Part shown: positions 6,133 through 11,422 of the stretch, piece after piece
Position numbering within the stretch: the first letter of the stretch is position 1
Layout of the letters: each line of letters starts with the position of its first letter
DNA from: Sphingorhabdus lacus
GTDB taxonomy: Bacteria > Pseudomonadota > Alphaproteobacteria > Sphingomonadales > Sphingomonadaceae
Length of the DNA stretch: 64,000 nucleotides
NCBI RefSeq assembly: GCF_009768975.1
Contig: NZ_CP035733.1
Coordinates: 1,178,001 to 1,242,000 of the forward strand
Direction: 5' to 3'
The notes under the pieces: generated by a model
What the model saw: the letters and a program-made list of their open reading frames with translations, nothing else
Database searches by the model: none
Told to the model about the DNA's origin: nothing
Translations under genes and position numbers: made by a program

Positions 6133-7352
6133 CCGGTATCAATATCCTGAATGGCCATGCGGTTCTTCCCGGAATCGCGAAGGCCGAGGCTGCACACATC
6201 CATATCGAAAATGGCGTCATTGCGTCCGTAGGCAAAGCCGCACCAATTGCCGAACAACTGGATGCATCGGGCCTTATTGTTGCACCCGGGATCATCGATC
6301 TGGGCGTCTTCAAAACCGATAAACCAGCCTTCCGTTTCGGCGGGATAACGCGGGCAGCGCTGATGCCGGACCAGTCACCTGTTCACGATGACCCCGCCAC
6401 GGTCCGTTATGCCGCGCTAAAAGGTAAACCCGATCTGTGGGTTCACCCGCTTGCGGCAGCTACGCAAGGGTTGGACGGGCTGCACATGGCGGAAATCGCC
6501 TTGATGAAAGAAGCCGGTGCCGTTGGTGTCGCCACCGGACGCAACTGGATTGCGGACAGCGGGATCATGCTACGCATCATGCGCTATTGTGCGGCGCTTG
6601 ACTTGCCCGTGTTCGTCCATAGCGAAGATGCCGGTCTTGCCGGCAAGGCGGTTGCGACCAATGGCGAAACAGCAACCTTGCTCGGCCTTTCGAGTGCGTC
6701 GCCCGCGACCGAGGCACTCGCCATCGCCCGCGATCTTATCCTTGCCGAAGAAAGTGGCGCCCATGTCCATTTCCGGCAGGTCACCACGGCGCGCGGTCTT
6801 GATATGATTCGGGATGGCAAGGCACGCGGTCTGCGGATCAGTTGCGGCATCACGCCCGGGCACCTTTTCCTGTCCGACAACGCCATATTCGACTTCCGAA
6901 CTTTTGCCCGACTTTCGCCGCCCTTGCGCGACGAAGATAATCGCCTGAGCTGCATCGCGGCGGTGGCTGACGGGACGATTGATGTGATCTCGTCAGGGCA
7001 TGACCCACGCGGGCCGGAGGACAAACGCCTTCCCTTTTCAGAGGCTGCACCAGGAATGGCGGGCGCTGAGACGTTGCTTGCGCTCTCGCTCAATCTGGTA
7101 CGTGAAGGCACCATTTCGACAGGTCGTCTTTTCGAACTGCTTGCAACCAATCCAGCGCAAATCCTCGGTTTAAATGCAGGGAAAATTGCAGAAGGATGTG
7201 AAGCCGACCTTATCCTGATCGATCCGGATGCGCCTTGGCAAGTTGATGGCGATAAAATGGCCGCGTTGGCAGGCAACACTCCTTTTGACCGCCTGCCGGT
7301 TCAAGGCCGCGTGCGGCATATGTTAAAGGGCGGCAAGGTCATACCGGCCTAA
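6129..7352 (+). CDS. Dihydroorotase-like protein lacking catalytic residues (PyrC'-type ATCase partner)
   Basis: 407 residues with the overall amidohydrolase/dihydroorotase layout, but the key residues are gone. Where active enzymes have PGxIDxHxH, this one reads PGIIDLGVF (residues 53-61), so both metal-binding histidines are missing. The late DHAPH motif with the catalytic Asp reads [11 protein letters not shown] (about 289-299). Two internal histidine regions remain ([15 protein letters not shown]). An inactive homologue, PyrC', is known in Pseudomonas, where it is needed to assemble ATCase; the four-base overlap with pyrB supports the same role here. A catalytic dihydroorotase must then be elsewhere. 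Automatic annotation as an active PyrC would be misleading. Confidence 0.85.
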
Positions 7353-7393: not shown

Positions 7394-8746
7394 TTAGCGC
7401 GCTGCGATCTTGCGACCCGTTGCACTTGCCATCCGCACAGGTTTATCGGCACCGATAGTCCGGACGAGGCAAACGCCACCTTGTGCCTTGATCTTACTGC
7501 ACGCAGCATTTGCAGATGCGCCGTTTGTGAAGCCCATCGCAGCCAGGCGGACAAATTTCTTGCCATTCACCGTAACGGTGGAACTTGCCGAATCCATTCC
7601 GCTCAGAACGCCGTAGCGCTTGCTATATTTGTTCCATGCTGCGGCTGCATTTGCTGCGTTCGAAAACGCACCAAGCTGGACCAGATGGGTCGAAGACTTC
7701 ATCGACGGCTTCGATGCCGGAACATCCGCCAGTGCAAGCTTAACCGGTGCGGACGGCGCGGCAGCTTTTGCAGGACCGGCTGATGCCTTAATCAGCGGAG
7801 CTTCTTCAACGGCAGCAACAGCAACCGGAGCGGGCTCAATCATGTTTACCGCGGCTTCGACCGCGGCAAAGCCAACGCTGTCGGAAACGGGCGCAGGGCC
7901 AAGCGCAGCAAGTTCGACGGGCTCAGGCTGAGGTGCGGAGGCCATTTCTACCGGTGCGGCCTGAACTTCGGCTTGCGCCAATCCAGCAGGTGCGGAGCTG
8001 TTTAGAGCCAACCGAACGGGCTGTCCGGTGTCGGCCATATTGGGGCGAACTTTCAAAAGTCCGGCAACGCGCAAAGTATAGGCTTCAGGGCGTGCGAACT
8101 GGGCCCATTCGGCAATCCGGTCGTTGACTTGCGACTGCGCCATATCCTGTGACGCCATGACGCGGGCATCGCGCCAGCGACCATCAAGGGCATAAGCAAG
8201 TGCAAGATTCTGACGAGTACGAACGGTCGCGCTGTCGGTGCGGATCGCATCGGTCAGTATATTGACGGCATCATCGGAACGCCCCGCAAGTGCGAGGGTC
8301 AGACCATAGTCGCTGACGGGGATGATCGAACGGTTTGCTTCCACCAGCATGACGGCCGAATCAACATTCCCTTGGGCGATACGTGCAAGCGCAAGGCTGA
8401 TCACGGTACGCGGGTCCACCTGGCCCAGTTCCATAACGTCCATCAAGGTGCGTTCTGCGGAAACGAAACGGCCTTGCGACATATAAATGCGGGCTAGAAG
8501 GCCACGATAATCGCGATTTTGCATATCGGCTTCAACGGCCAATTCAGCGAAGGTCAACGCTCGATCGGCTTTACCCTTTGCAAGAGCCTGCTCGGCTTTC
8601 TTCGCCCAGCCATAAGCCTTTTCAGGGCCTGCCTTTTTGGCCGACACCTTATCAGTGCTCCCGAAACCGGCAGTCGACGTTGTCATCGCGGGCACTGCCA
8701 CAAAAGCAGTCGATAATGCGAGCTTTACGACAAATTTGCTATTCAT
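7394..8746 (-). CDS. Secreted TPR-repeat protein with C-terminal SPOR domain
   Basis: 450 residues: an N-terminal signal peptide (to about residue 27), TPR-like helical repeats over roughly residues 45-220, a long Ala/Pro/Val-rich linker, and a C-terminal SPOR domain (HLVQLGAFSNAANAAAAW to about residue 430). The SPOR domain carries a closely spaced cysteine pair (AACSKIKAQGGVCLV) also found in the divergent protein ending at 11422. SPOR domains bind denuded septal peptidoglycan, so a periplasmic cell-division or envelope role is likely. It is the third gene of a minus-strand run after the ParA and RHH-like genes, with a 31-base gap. No enzymatic domain is visible. Confidence 0.85.
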   Translation of the reverse strand: MNSKFVVKLALSTAFVAVPAMTTSTAGFGSTDKVSAKKAGPEKAYGWAKKAEQALAKGKADRALTFAELAVEADMQNRDYRGLLARIYMSQGRFVSAERTLMDVMELGQVDPRTVISLALARIAQGNVDSAVMLVEANRSIIPVSDYGLTLALAGRSDDAVNILTDAIRTDSATVRTRQNLALAYALDGRWRDARVMASQDMAQSQVNDRIAEWAQFARPEAYTLRVAGLLKVRPNMADTGQPVRLALNSSAPAGLAQAEVQAAPVEMASAPQPEPVELAALGPAPVSDSVGFAAVEAAVNMIEPAPVAVAAVEEAPLIKASAGPAKAAAPSAPVKLALADVPASKPSMKSSTHLVQLGAFSNAANAAAAWNKYSKRYGVLSGMDSASSTVTVNGKKFVRLAAMGFTNGASANAACSKIKAQGGVCLVRTIGADKPVRMASATGRKIAAR

Positions 8747-8777
8747 GGTATCACCTCAAAAAAGCTCAAACTCGGGT

Positions 8778-9395
8778 TTAATGTTTTTTCGTCGGAACGT
8801 GGGACGCGAGGTGTCCAATTTCCGGCATGGAATCGAGAAATGCGTCCAACGCATCGGTCACAAGATTTTGTGCCGACTGATGGCGGACGGCGCAGGCAAG
8901 ACGAAGCTTCAAATGACGCTCGCCGTCGAGGCGCAACGTGAAGGCCGCTTTGTCTTTAAGCCCCGGTTTCGACCGAGCACGCGAACGTGGCGCATCGGTT
9001 TTTCCACGGCGCGCAATGGGCTGCACCGGTGGTTCAGGGATCATGCTGACGACCGTCAGTGTCGTTTCGACTTCAGTCTCGGCTCCGGACAAGCTTTCGA
9101 AACCGACATCAAGTTCGGAATCATATTCGTCAAAAATACGCTCCTGCTGGTTCTTGACCTCGGGAACGGCTCCCGCGAGCGGATTTTGCCCATGAAAGCT
9201 GTGGTCATAATCCATCGGCGTATTGGGATCGGGATCGACATCATATCCCATGTCGTTCCAACCTAGATCATCCTGCGACAGTGCGGCGTTACCGTTACTG
9301 CCCATCATCGATGGACGACGCATGGCGGGACGTGCCAGACCCTTACGAGCCAGCAATATGCCGGAAAGTGATGCTATTGGCTTAGGTTCGCTCAT
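8778..9395 (-). CDS. ParA-associated protein with disordered N-terminus and ribbon-helix-helix-like C-terminus
   Basis: 205 residues. The first 130 or so are low-complexity, acidic and Asn/Asp/Pro-rich after a short conserved-looking start (LSGILLARKGLARPAMRR). The last 60 residues (AAFTLRLDGERHLKLRLACA then SAQNLVTDALDAFLD) read like a strand followed by two helices, i.e. an RHH (CopG/ParG-like) or similar domain, flanked by a basic stretch (RRGKTDAPRSRARSKPGLKDK). It sits 23 bases after the ParA gene. By analogy with ParA-ParG pairs it may be the DNA- or cargo-binding partner of that ATPase; this is inference. No catalytic motif. Confidence 0.7.
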   Translation of the reverse strand: MSEPKPIASLSGILLARKGLARPAMRRPSMMGSNGNAALSQDDLGWNDMGYDVDPDPNTPMDYDHSFHGQNPLAGAVPEVKNQQERIFDEYDSELDVGFESLSGAETEVETTLTVVSMIPEPPVQPIARRGKTDAPRSRARSKPGLKDKAAFTLRLDGERHLKLRLACAVRHQSAQNLVTDALDAFLDSMPEIGHLASHVPTKKH

Positions 9396-9418
9396 CTTCG
9401 TTGCCCCCTTTTCTTCGC

Positions 9419-10138
9419 TTAACCAACAACGCGACGGCCAAAGCCGCCCATCGGTCGTGCGGTGGCAACTTGCGGGTTAGCCGCGGCGGCGGGAGCGCTG
9501 AAAACGGTCCGGCGGAAGTTCTTTTCCAGTCGGTCCGAAATATATGCCCAAAGCTGGATAACTTCTTGCGAAGACCGGCCGTTGGGGTCGATTTCCATAA
9601 CCGTGCGACCGTCGATCATCGATGCTGCGAAGTCGGTACGATGATGGAGTGTAATTGGTGCGACGGTGCCGTGCTGCGACAGTGCAACAGCTGCTTCCGA
9701 AGTGATTTTCGCTTTTGGCGTTGCCGCGTTGACCACGAAGATCAATGGCTTTCCGGCCCGCTCGCACAAATCGACAGTAGCACCTACGGCGCGCAGGTCA
9801 TGGGGACTCGGGCGGGTTGGAACGACGATCAGCTCGGCGACCGATATAACGCTCTGGATCGCCATGGTAATGGCGGGTGGCGTGTCGATGACCGCAAGCT
9901 TGAAACCCTGTTGCCGCAAAACAGCCAAATCCGCCGCAAGGCGGGCAACTGTTGTTTGGGCAAATGCGGGAAGGTCGGCTTCACGTTCATTCCACCAATC
10001 GGCCAGCGACCCTTGCGGATCGATATCAATCAAAACGACAGGCCCGGCTCCGGCGAGTTGTGCCTGAACCGCTAAGTGGCCAGAAAGGGTGGTTTTGCCC
10101 GACCCGCCCTTCTGTGATGCTAATGCGAGAACCCTCAC
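9419..10138 (-). CDS. Orphan ParA/MinD-family ATPase
   Basis: 239 residues with a deviant Walker A KGGSGKTT containing the signature lysine, Walker A' VLIDIDPQGS, and the switch DTPPA, all diagnostic for the ParA/MinD family. There is no amphipathic membrane-targeting helix typical of MinD, and the gene is not next to a parB. These ATPases position DNA, chemoreceptors, carboxysomes or division proteins through gradients on the nucleoid. The GTG start at 10138 is supported by an AAGGGG Shine-Dalgarno 7 bases upstream; the nearby ATG at 10140 is out of frame. It is first in a run with the RHH-like and TPR/SPOR genes, suggesting its cargo relates to the envelope or septum. Confidence 0.92.
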   Translation of the reverse strand: MRVLALASQKGGSGKTTLSGHLAVQAQLAGAGPVVLIDIDPQGSLADWWNEREADLPAFAQTTVARLAADLAVLRQQGFKLAVIDTPPAITMAIQSVISVAELIVVPTRPSPHDLRAVGATVDLCERAGKPLIFVVNAATPKAKITSEAAVALSQHGTVAPITLHHRTDFAASMIDGRTVMEIDPNGRSSQEVIQLWAYISDRLEKNFRRTVFSAPAAAANPQVATARPMGGFGRRVVG

Positions 10139-10186
10139 ATCATTCCCCTTTGTAAATGTTTCAAATGGGGATGTGACAGAACAGGG

Positions 10187-10202
10187 CTAAAAATCCGTTA
10201 AC
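10187..10202. promoter_or_regulatory. CtrA-box-like site upstream of the ParA gene
   Basis: CTAA-N7-TTAAC, one mismatch from the alphaproteobacterial CtrA consensus TTAA-N7-TTAA(C). It lies about 50-65 bases before the ParA start, inside the divergent control region. A second TTAAGAGATTAA at 10300-10311 has the wrong spacing. A chance match is quite possible in an AT-rich gap. Confidence 0.3.
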
Positions 10203-10320
10203 GCTGCACCCGATTTCACCGCACAAATATTGGCTGGCTTAGCCTAAACCTTAATCTATATAGCCGCATCTGACCTAATGATTTGGGGCATTGGGCTGGT
10301 TAAGAGATTAATCGGAAATG

Positions 10321-10359
10321 TTTACCATTTTTGAGTTTCTTGCATATTATAAGAAACTC
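10321..10359 (+). promoter_or_regulatory. Promoter overlapped by a perfect 9-bp dyad (operator-like)
   Basis: A perfect inverted repeat GAGTTTCTT-N9-AAGAAACTC occupies 10333-10359, just before the SPOR gene starting at 10382. A plausible promoter is TTTACC at 10321-10326 and TATTAT at 10345-10350, 18 bases apart, which puts the -10 in the centre of the dyad. The layout is that of a repressor operator; alternatively the RNA could fold into a hairpin in the leader. A strong GGAGGA ribosome-binding site follows at 10371-10376. Confidence 0.55.
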
Positions 10360-10381
10360 GCTTTTTGTTCGGAGGAATTAC

Positions 10382-11422
10382 ATGAAGTTAGGGTCGCACC
10401 TTTCGAAACTGGCAATGGCTGCCTTGGCGCTATCGCTGCAATCCGCCCCAGCTGCTGCTGACGTCAAGGCGGGCGTCGATGCCTGGAGCCGTGGCGACTA
10501 TGAAGCGGCCGTCAAAGAATGGCGCGAACCTGCACTTAAAGGTGATCCTGATGCCCAGTTCAACATGGGCCAGGCATATAAGACGGGGCGCGGTGTAAAA
10601 ACCGACCTGAATATTGCCCTGGACTGGTATAAAAAGGCTTCGGCTCAGGGCCATTTGAAGGCAATGGACAGCTACGGCCACCTTCTTCACTATCAGGGTC
10701 GCGTGGTAGAAGCGCTCCCCATATTGCAGGCGTCGGCGGATCGCGGAGACCCGCGCGCGCAGTATTTGCTTGCAACCGAACTGTTTAATGGCACCCATAT
10801 CGCAAAAGATTGGGTCCGTGCTTACGCCTTGATGTCACTTGCTTCCTCTGCAGGCATGGCACCTGCATCGCAAAGTCTGTCGCAAATGGATACATATGTT
10901 CCGCTGGAACAGCGTCAGGCAGCAACGGTGCTAGCAGGCGAACTGGAACAGCGCGCCAGCAGGAATGCTTCGGCGCAGGCCGCCGGATTCCCGATCAATA
11001 CAACCCCGCCATCCAAACCCACTAAACAGGTCGCGGTGCCACCGTCGTCGATTCCATCCGCAAATCCTCCCGGATTTCCGGCGAACATTCCGGCCGTAGG
11101 GGTTCCCGCCGGAAAGCCAAAAGTTGTGCAGCCGGCTGTGGCTAAACCTGCCTCAGCGCCGGTCGTCAAACCTGCAGCGCCTGCTGTAGCCAGTCCATGG
11201 CGTATCCAGTTGGGTGCATTCAGCGAGGATGCCAATGCCAAGAAGCTTTGGGCTTCGTTGAAGGGCAAAGTTGCGGGAATCGACTCCTTGCAACCAAGCT
11301 ACAAAAATAGCGGACAAATCACACGACTACAGGCTGGTCCATTTGCAAGCCGGGCGGCTGCCGATGCCATGTGCGGAAAACTCAAAGCTGTCGGACAAGC
11401 CTGTCTCGTCGTTCCGGGTTAA
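10382..11422 (+). CDS. Secreted Sel1-repeat protein with C-terminal SPOR domain
   Basis: 346 residues from the ATG at 10382, which has an excellent GGAGGAATTAC ribosome-binding site. The order is: signal peptide ending near AAA-D (residue 27), two to three Sel1/TPR-type repeats (for example DAQFNMGQAYKTGRGV), a Pro/Ala/Val-rich linker from about 205 to 275, and a SPOR domain (WRIQLGAFSEDANAK) ending at the C-terminus with the cysteine pair MCGKLKAVGQACLV. It is divergent from the ParA gene and shares domain design with the TPR/SPOR protein at 7394-8746. Periplasmic, septum-related function is likely. Its stop overlaps the convergent lipoprotein stop by four bases (TTAA). Confidence 0.87.
   Translation: MKLGSHLSKLAMAALALSLQSAPAAADVKAGVDAWSRGDYEAAVKEWREPALKGDPDAQFNMGQAYKTGRGVKTDLNIALDWYKKASAQGHLKAMDSYGHLLHYQGRVVEALPILQASADRGDPRAQYLLATELFNGTHIAKDWVRAYALMSLASSAGMAPASQSLSQMDTYVPLEQRQAATVLAGELEQRASRNASAQAAGFPINTTPPSKPTKQVAVPPSSIPSANPPGFPANIPAVGVPAGKPKVVQPAVAKPASAPVVKPAAPAVASPWRIQLGAFSEDANAKKLWASLKGKVAGIDSLQPSYKNSGQITRLQAGPFASRAAADAMCGKLKAVGQACLVVPG

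Follow-up and report, generated by a model that had tools for sequence, protein, structure and literature searches.

A ParA-type ATPase with a candidate ribbon-helix-helix adaptor beside two SPOR-domain genes in Sphingorhabdus lacus: a possible positioning system with an exchanged load

In a stretch of 64,000 nucleotides from Sphingorhabdus lacus (the window, which is part of a single 3.46 Mb contig) we analysed a block of four genes encoding a ParA-type ATPase, a protein with a C-terminal ribbon-helix-helix (RHH) domain and two proteins with SPOR domains. In our view these genes probably represent the RHH version of a family of ParA positioning systems with a modular adaptor. A peptide at the N-terminus of the RHH protein would dock on ParA and activate it, the RHH domain would bind DNA, and SPOR function would be supplied by the neighbouring genes. 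Because the same peptide is joined in relatives to a membrane-spanning, cell wall-binding type of protein, the genes may form a positioning system whose load was exchanged during evolution. A first-pass annotation of the same DNA had suggested that an orphan ParA relays the position of DNA or nucleoid to the division site together with its neighbours. This interpretation is partly supported by the present analysis and was right in direction.

Results and Discussion

ParA and the RHH adaptor

The parA gene (9419-10138, minus strand) encodes, judging from its sequence, a ParF-like ATPase of 239 amino acids with a GTG start and no N-terminal DNA-binding domain. Only 23 nucleotides further downstream follows a gene on the same strand (8778-9395) for a protein of 205 amino acids, which we propose as the ParA partner and call the RHH adaptor. 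It comprises an N-terminal peptide, a linker of low model confidence and the C-terminal RHH domain. In the loci of the order and of the class, the gene directly downstream of ParA mostly opens with one peptide, ASLxxxLLARKGxAxPA. In the window this peptide corresponds to the conserved residues 8-26 of the adaptor (ASLSGILLARKGLARPAMR; 9318-9374, minus strand).

The frequency of the peptide was determined with the strict pattern L.{1,4}[LIVM][LIVM].[RK]KG.A.P in 161 loci, i.e. the window, 80 fetched loci and the best 80 of 288 relatives. The fetched loci were hand-picked and comprise 40 of the 130 orthologues of the order, spread over its families, and 40 matches from the class outside the order, two of which (L077 and L078) are only 50% and 42% identical in ParA. 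The pattern was found on the same strand within 450 nucleotides downstream of ParA in 131 of the 161 loci, which are not independent: probably at least three records are common to both samples, and many rows come from one order. Because the pattern was composed after the sequences had been seen, the rate elsewhere and not the rate at the loci served as control. Elsewhere a single match occurred in 2.26 million six-frame residues, and this match (L207) is itself a ParA-adjacent adaptor. A scan of the whole genome to which the window belongs yielded five matches (2 forward, 3 reverse; 0 and 3 with a control pattern), of which only the one next to ParA looks, by eye, like a credible start of a protein.

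In an alignment of 49 adaptors the residues L10, K18, G19, A21 and P23 were invariant. Besides the peptide, the conserved parts of the window adaptor are the linker motif DLGWNDMG (residues 43-50; 9246-9269, minus strand), followed by a helix, and the RHH domain at about residues 148-190 (8826-8954, minus strand). In the AlphaFold2 model, only the linker helix and the RHH domain are predicted with confidence (block means of the predicted local distance difference test, pLDDT, 90-96 for residues 151-200). The N-terminal peptide is conserved, basic and of low pLDDT. The Pfam model RHH_10 scored 15.9 on the window adaptor, below its cut-off of 27. With the C-terminal domain Foldseek gave none that reached E 0.001, which is unsurprising given how short the domain is, and 38 weak matches. 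Nearly all of these, and likewise those of VIA-align, are chains that we take to be RHH proteins (among them CopG, Arc, PutA, AtaR, CdbA, MatP and ParB of pCXC100). The RHH-like tail described in the first-pass annotation is thus borne out. DLGWNDMG is conserved in most of the 49 adaptors. In the window protein a helix predicted with confidence comes after it at residues 79-96, near a P.V..QQ..L pattern; the motif is possibly a second partner site.

In the partition system of TP228, the partner of ParA ends in an RHH domain and contacts ParA through its disordered N-terminus. On docking, this N-terminus forms a helix at the interface of the ParA dimer, where Arg19 is a possible arginine finger (PMC5393062; here and below, citations refer to parts of the papers). 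By analogy, the N-terminal peptide of the window adaptor probably docks on ParA, and from the gene order and the peptide the RHH protein is likely the partner of the adjacent ParA. The view of an orphan ParA without parB has to be divided accordingly. The genome contains parB matches at 2682602, 1981279 and 1338015, and the window ParA lies at 1187422, so that none stands beside it; the best parB match adjoins another ParA-type match. This differs from canonical chromosomal ParABS, in which parB lies beside ParA. The designation as orphan was rejected, as an adaptor with the conserved peptide adjoins ParA in most loci.

Family and distribution of ParA

The window ParA carries a deviant Walker A motif, KGGSGKTT, at its N-terminus. 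The best named model was NCBIfam NF041546 ('ParA family partition ATPase') with 159.8 bits, below the cut-off of 180; six relatives, with 156.4-176.3 bits, likewise stay under this value. Pfam AAA_31 and CbiA were passed and, with lower scores, MipZ, VirC1, NUBPL-type ParA and ArsA. The MipZ score of 31.7 (cut-off 20.7) comes from two stretches, the best of which spans profile positions 2-53 of 262. The solved structures closest to the ParA clade are ParA 5u1g (9e-21), presumably the ParA of TP228, and ParF 4dzz (1.1e-20).

Some ParA match (E 1e-3) was present in all 147 genomes of the order and a clear orthologue (best E < 1e-60) in 130, leaving 17 genomes without it; the orthologues are 58-95% identical to the window ParA. 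In a class-wide draw of 241 genomes, matches of at least 56% identity came from 35 genomes, of which 31 bear no label but 'same class'. Below this value there is a gap, the next matches having 50% and 42% identity, followed by a large group mostly at 30-40%. All 22 genomes with a match at 1e-35 in a phylum draw of 299 genomes belong to the same class. Relatives of ParA do occur on plasmids of other classes.

These data bear on the idea that the genes are the decaying remnant of a plasmid or conjugative element without present function. The VirC1-VirC2 pair likewise consists of a ParA and an RHH protein, and the window ParA passes the VirC1 model of Pfam (28.9, cut-off 24). The same score of 28.9 is far from the cut-off of 313 of the NCBIfam VirC1 model (NF010423), and orthologues retained in 130 of 147 genomes with 58-95% identity are unlike a pattern of decay. 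We therefore consider a remnant very improbable.

The C-terminal tail of the window ParA (9422-9442, minus strand) contains an FGRR-like motif, which is found in 29 of 41 ParAs of the order (including the window), in 18 of 33 other ParAs of the class and in none of the 7 ParAs whose adaptor is of the SPOR type. The motif is possibly linked to the DNA or RHH mode. A gene for a DUF2336 protein was seen upstream of ParA in one class locus (L042, 8136-9293); its sequence cluster is represented in 8 of the 80 fetched loci and stands immediately before ParA in three.

Adaptors with a SPOR domain in relatives

At 11 loci from other Alphaproteobacteria, the protein that starts with the peptide has a transmembrane (TM) segment and a C-terminal SPOR domain. 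These TM-SPOR adaptors consist of the peptide, a long linker, one strongly hydrophobic segment after basic residues, a proline-rich stretch and the SPOR domain. By inspection of the sequence, the peptide would be cytosolic and the SPOR domain periplasmic. Seven come from genomes labelled 'same class' (L044, L058, L060, L066, L067, L068, L074) and four from contigs of metagenome-assembled genomes, one titled Kiloniellales and three Alphaproteobacteria only (L135, L144, L166, L194). The Pfam model SPOR (PF05036) was passed by 8 of 8 TM-SPOR adaptors scanned; in L060, L067 and L135 the domain was assigned by likeness and a custom SPOR profile only. The strict peptide is kept in 9 of the 11, L144 and L194 having a looser form. 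The adaptors of L144 (4223-5782) and L194 (4223-5491) also contain an extra stretch between TM segment and SPOR domain (around DPDGSAVIAGRAAP in L144), which has no Pfam name and by eye resembles an Ig-like domain.

With a SPOR domain on the same peptide, these proteins point to a direct link between ParA and SPOR in the relatives. The fusion lends separate support to a coupling of ParA and SPOR. Within one ParA clade the cargo end of the adaptor thus appears to be exchanged, RHH domain against TM-SPOR, and this is the new element of the analysis. In the class draw, 7 genomes have a SPOR-type locus, and five of them (G154, G268, G250, G335, G320) carry a second ParA of the clade elsewhere, with an adaptor of the RHH cluster whose peptide is degenerate in G154 and G268. 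These five genomes hold both kinds of adaptor at two separate loci.

In a first tree the seven SPOR-type ParAs clustered so that two changes were needed, and none of 500 shuffles was as good; L072, L075 and L077 were left out because the Walker motif was not found in frame. A second tree, without L077, set nine SPOR-type ParAs against seven plasmid rows only and required one change. Both trees contain many weak branches.

Activators of ParA proteins have been described or proposed as modular, with a basic N-terminal peptide on varied cargo domains (PMC7993993; also PMC12204374 and PMC5393062). PomX/PomZ and McdB/McdA share with the present adaptors that a short basic N-terminal peptide acts on the ATPase and the rest of the protein sets the cargo (PMC7993993, PMC12204374). 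Their cargoes are a division-site cluster and carboxysomes, whereas the adaptors described here end in an RHH domain or in TM-SPOR, and one peptide is common to both kinds within a single ParA clade. PpfA with TlpT is a known ParA pair of the same general kind (PMC7993993), from which it might be supposed that the window ParA positions a protein cargo, e.g. a chemoreceptor cluster or another cytoplasmic assembly, the RHH domain serving only oligomerisation or autoregulation. We regard this as improbable, given that the C-terminal part of the adaptors is an RHH domain or TM-SPOR and not a receptor. No chemotaxis protein was detected among the few neighbours scanned, which counts for little as most neighbours were clustered without a scan.

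Like the TM-SPOR adaptors, HubP/FimV is a membrane protein; it combines a cytoplasmic part with a LysM-like domain in the periplasm (PMC12918733). It has LysM and not SPOR as well as a large cytoplasmic domain, and it is an analogue only of the adaptors of the relatives, not of the window proteins. In FtsN a cytosolic N-terminus is followed by a TM segment, a linker and the SPOR domain, which is the same layout as in the TM-SPOR adaptors. HubP binds ParA-type ATPases. A C-terminal SPOR domain is common to FtsN and other SPOR proteins, the window proteins and the TM-SPOR adaptors. Both window SPOR proteins and the L066 adaptor scored 37-39 bits with the NCBIfam FtsN model (NF050813), whose cut-off is 300, and TM-SPOR adaptors differ from FtsN in beginning with the conserved peptide.

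Conservation and loss of the SPOR neighbours

Third in the apparent operon of the window, 31 nucleotides after the adaptor gene, is a gene for a TPR/SPOR protein of 450 amino acids (7394-8746, minus strand), with a SPOR domain at residues 351-429 (7460-7696; Pfam PF05036, 47.4 bits). The Sel1/SPOR protein (10382-11422, plus strand; SPOR domain at 11192-11413, 64.8 bits) has 346 amino acids counted from an ATG at 10382, which is preceded by GGAGG, and is transcribed divergently from ParA. Both proteins exceed the SPOR cut-off of 21 bits, and by inspection both begin with a signal-like segment. The four genes were verified at the expected coordinates, and on the minus strand the short gaps are operon-like. 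The arrangement of the first-pass annotation, including two SPOR proteins, thus holds.

In the 40 loci of the order, TPR/SPOR lies downstream of ParA in 39 and Sel1/SPOR nearby on the opposite strand in 33. (The separate table of clustered neighbours lacks three loci, L056, L112 and L115, which could not be placed.) Genome-wide we found four SPOR matches, two of which flank the window ParA. Since the arrangement recurs across the order and two of the four genomic SPOR matches flank ParA, it goes beyond chance.

To survey co-loss, the three remaining proteins were searched for in 22 order genomes: 11 that carry ParA, and 11 of the 17 that lack it. None of the 11 without ParA had a match to the RHH adaptor, compared with 9 of the 11 with ParA. 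One of the two missing cases (G004) has a divergent adaptor (L103), and in the other (G103) the gene is seemingly missing. At the G103 locus (L095, G103:C7:20140-34841) ParA is divergent (69% identity), and 149 nucleotides lie between ParA and TPR/SPOR. Full-length TPR/SPOR was detected in one of five same-family genomes without ParA (G110) and in 9 of 9 with ParA. From the retention pattern in the same-family genomes without ParA it follows that TPR/SPOR tends to accompany ParA and that Sel1/SPOR does not need it.

The interpretation as a ParA positioning system that works together with SPOR proteins has to be weighed against a number of contrary observations. As regards the pair itself, 30 of the 161 loci lack the strict peptide, many having a looser form (e.g. 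L045, L057, L063, L092, L144 and L194) and some being contig ends, and the strict pattern was, as mentioned, composed with the sequences in view. In VIA-align the adaptor tail matched RHH chains over about 50 residues with Z values no higher than 6.0; for scores of this size the tool cautions that the likeness may be due to chance or to nothing more than a common arrangement. In the second tree the non-SPOR row L045 falls inside the SPOR-type group. In the region 10130-10390 upstream of ParA no repeats of 10 or more nucleotides were found, a search that short degenerate sites would escape. As regards the neighbours, Sel1/SPOR was not found beside ParA in 7 of the 40 order loci and was retained in all five same-family genomes without ParA. 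In one of these, G110, both SPOR genes are adjacent, and no ParA or RHH match was found in the stretch. Neither SPOR gene was found beside ParA in any of the 40 class loci outside the order (0 of 40 each; an exception-like case is L053, with a Sel1/SPOR-like match 5.6 kb away). Compared with 39 and 33 of 40 within the order, this makes the four-gene block a trait of the order, ParA itself being distributed more widely. The conservation of the neighbours with ParA inside the order speaks for the first-pass annotation, which had made its proposal depend on it. Furthermore, both window SPOR proteins look exported by inspection and would therefore have no direct contact with a cytosolic ATPase, so that some go-between or shared regulation would be required. 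The link between the ParA pair and the two SPOR proteins of the window is one of gene neighbourhood only, and the coupling of ParA to SPOR, seen directly as a fusion to the same peptide in relatives, stands for the window itself on this neighbourhood. The weakest step is the proposed cooperation of ParA and its adaptor with the neighbouring SPOR proteins at the site of division.

In G110 (L250, G110:C21:35000-48000, at about 6246-6613) parA and the RHH gene are naturally missing between the SPOR genes, so that this locus can serve comparisons as a naturally occurring deletion.

Plasmid relatives and origin of the pair

A tblastn search with ParA against plasmid records gave 90 records at 1e-30, of which the 25 listed are 57-65% identical. 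All seven records that were opened carry, after ParA, a protein of about 80-115 amino acids that opens with a version of the peptide (e.g. MAKTASLTSGLVAKKGQAMPA), which is looser in L128-L130. By eye these partner proteins have an RHH-like tail, and one of two scanned passes Pfam RHH_10. A replication gene is annotated nearby in five of the seven records (L124, L125, L126, L128, L129); L127 is unannotated, and the L130 locus is truncated where its record stops. Because all seven plasmid relatives carry ParA plus a small peptide-bearing protein, the chromosomal ParA and RHH adaptor resemble a domesticated plasmid cassette of the ParF/ParG type. A plasmid origin of the chromosomal pair is the likelier one, and the tree with the plasmid ParAs fits either direction.

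The closest known kind is the plasmid ParF/ParG pair (type Ib, TP228), with which the window pair shares a small ParA of about 200-240 amino acids with deviant Walker A motif and without N-terminal DNA-binding domain, and an RHH partner encoded downstream. In contrast to ParF/ParG, the window pair is chromosomal and conserved through an order, its adaptor has 205 amino acids instead of 76 and an extra linker motif, no upstream repeats were found, and it has relatives in which TM-SPOR replaces the RHH domain.

The plasmid relatives of both genes, five of seven with a replication gene nearby, would also fit a simpler explanation. According to this, ParA and the RHH protein are only a DNA-segregation or self-regulating chromosomal cassette of plasmid origin that moves or marks a DNA site, and the SPOR genes are old neighbours with a separate role in the envelope. 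The adjacent SPOR genes of G110, the persistence of Sel1/SPOR in genomes without ParA and the occurrence of the pair without such neighbours in the class outside the order agree with it. Against it speak the position of TPR/SPOR downstream of ParA in 39 of the 40 order loci, the absence of a full TPR/SPOR match in 4 of 5 same-family genomes without ParA as opposed to its presence in 9 of 9 with ParA, and the SPOR-fused adaptors within the same ParA clade. We consider this explanation possible, if rather doubtful.

Upstream region and flanking genes

The divergent intergenic region upstream of ParA (10139-10381) contains no direct or inverted repeats that we could find. Its initial 60-70 nucleotides (10139-10200, GTTAAC..TTTTTAGCCCTGTTCTGTCACATCCCC) are well conserved among close relatives and may be a promoter or an RHH operator. 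The closest named relative among the aligned adaptors, Sphingorhabdus contaminans (L175), has an adaptor 94% identical and a near-identical intergenic region. CtrA-type sites, the CtrA consensus being TTAA-N7-TTAA, were considered upstream of ParA and are unsupported: 5 of the 97 loci (out of 121) for which the upstream region was obtained contain this sequence, against 0 and 3 with spacings of 6 and 8. After the block, other families of the order have an Hsp20-type and a UPF0047 gene (L085:4552-4938, L096:11355-11774); in the window, pyrC-like and pyrB-like genes, named by eye, are located in this position instead.

Proposed mechanism

The positioning model that we favour builds on what the sequences show, namely the order of the genes, the conservation of the peptide, the presence of an RHH domain, the fusion of the peptide to TM-SPOR in relatives and the versions of the peptide in plasmid relatives. 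Nucleoid binding, peptide-triggered hydrolysis and DNA binding by the RHH domain are inferred by analogy with characterised systems. The ParF-like ParA would occupy the nucleoid as an ATP-bound dimer. The LLARKG peptide of the adaptor would dock at this dimer and trigger ATP hydrolysis and release, as do ParG, Spo0J, PomX and McdB, and whatever carries the adaptor would thereby be moved or positioned along the nucleoid. In the window the C-terminal RHH domain would tie ParA to specific DNA, so that the load is DNA. In relatives with a TM-SPOR adaptor the load would be an inner-membrane protein able to hold peptidoglycan. In Sphingomonadales the SPOR function would come from the two separate, apparently exported proteins that are kept beside the pair. 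Binding of septal peptidoglycan is established for other SPOR domains. A relay of nucleoid position to the division site by this module is still a hypothesis.

A more far-reaching version, which we offer as tentative and would not expect to hold in full, regards this alphaproteobacterial ParA clade as a general positioning engine with a plug-in docking peptide. It would be derived from plasmid partition, its DNA cargo having been swapped for the envelope by the graft of the peptide onto a membrane-spanning SPOR protein. In the relatives a direct physical line would then run from the ParA on the nucleoid across the inner membrane to septal peptidoglycan. The Sphingomonadales would achieve the same in trans, with an adaptor on DNA and two SPOR proteins, so that the position of the chromosome is coupled to septation.

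Conclusions

No description of a ParA-SPOR adaptor system was present among the matches listed in the open-licence literature, and the main-text passages searched from two papers on Sphingomonas or Novosphingobium screens do not mention the window genes. The idea of modular ParA activators (PMC7993993, in part) would gain a case in which one clade appears to show a natural exchange of cargo, RHH tail against TM-SPOR. If the model is true for the SPOR adaptors, a nucleoid-bound ATPase would be linked straight to septal peptidoglycan, and a relay of chromosome position to the division site would become testable in Sphingomonadales and their relatives.

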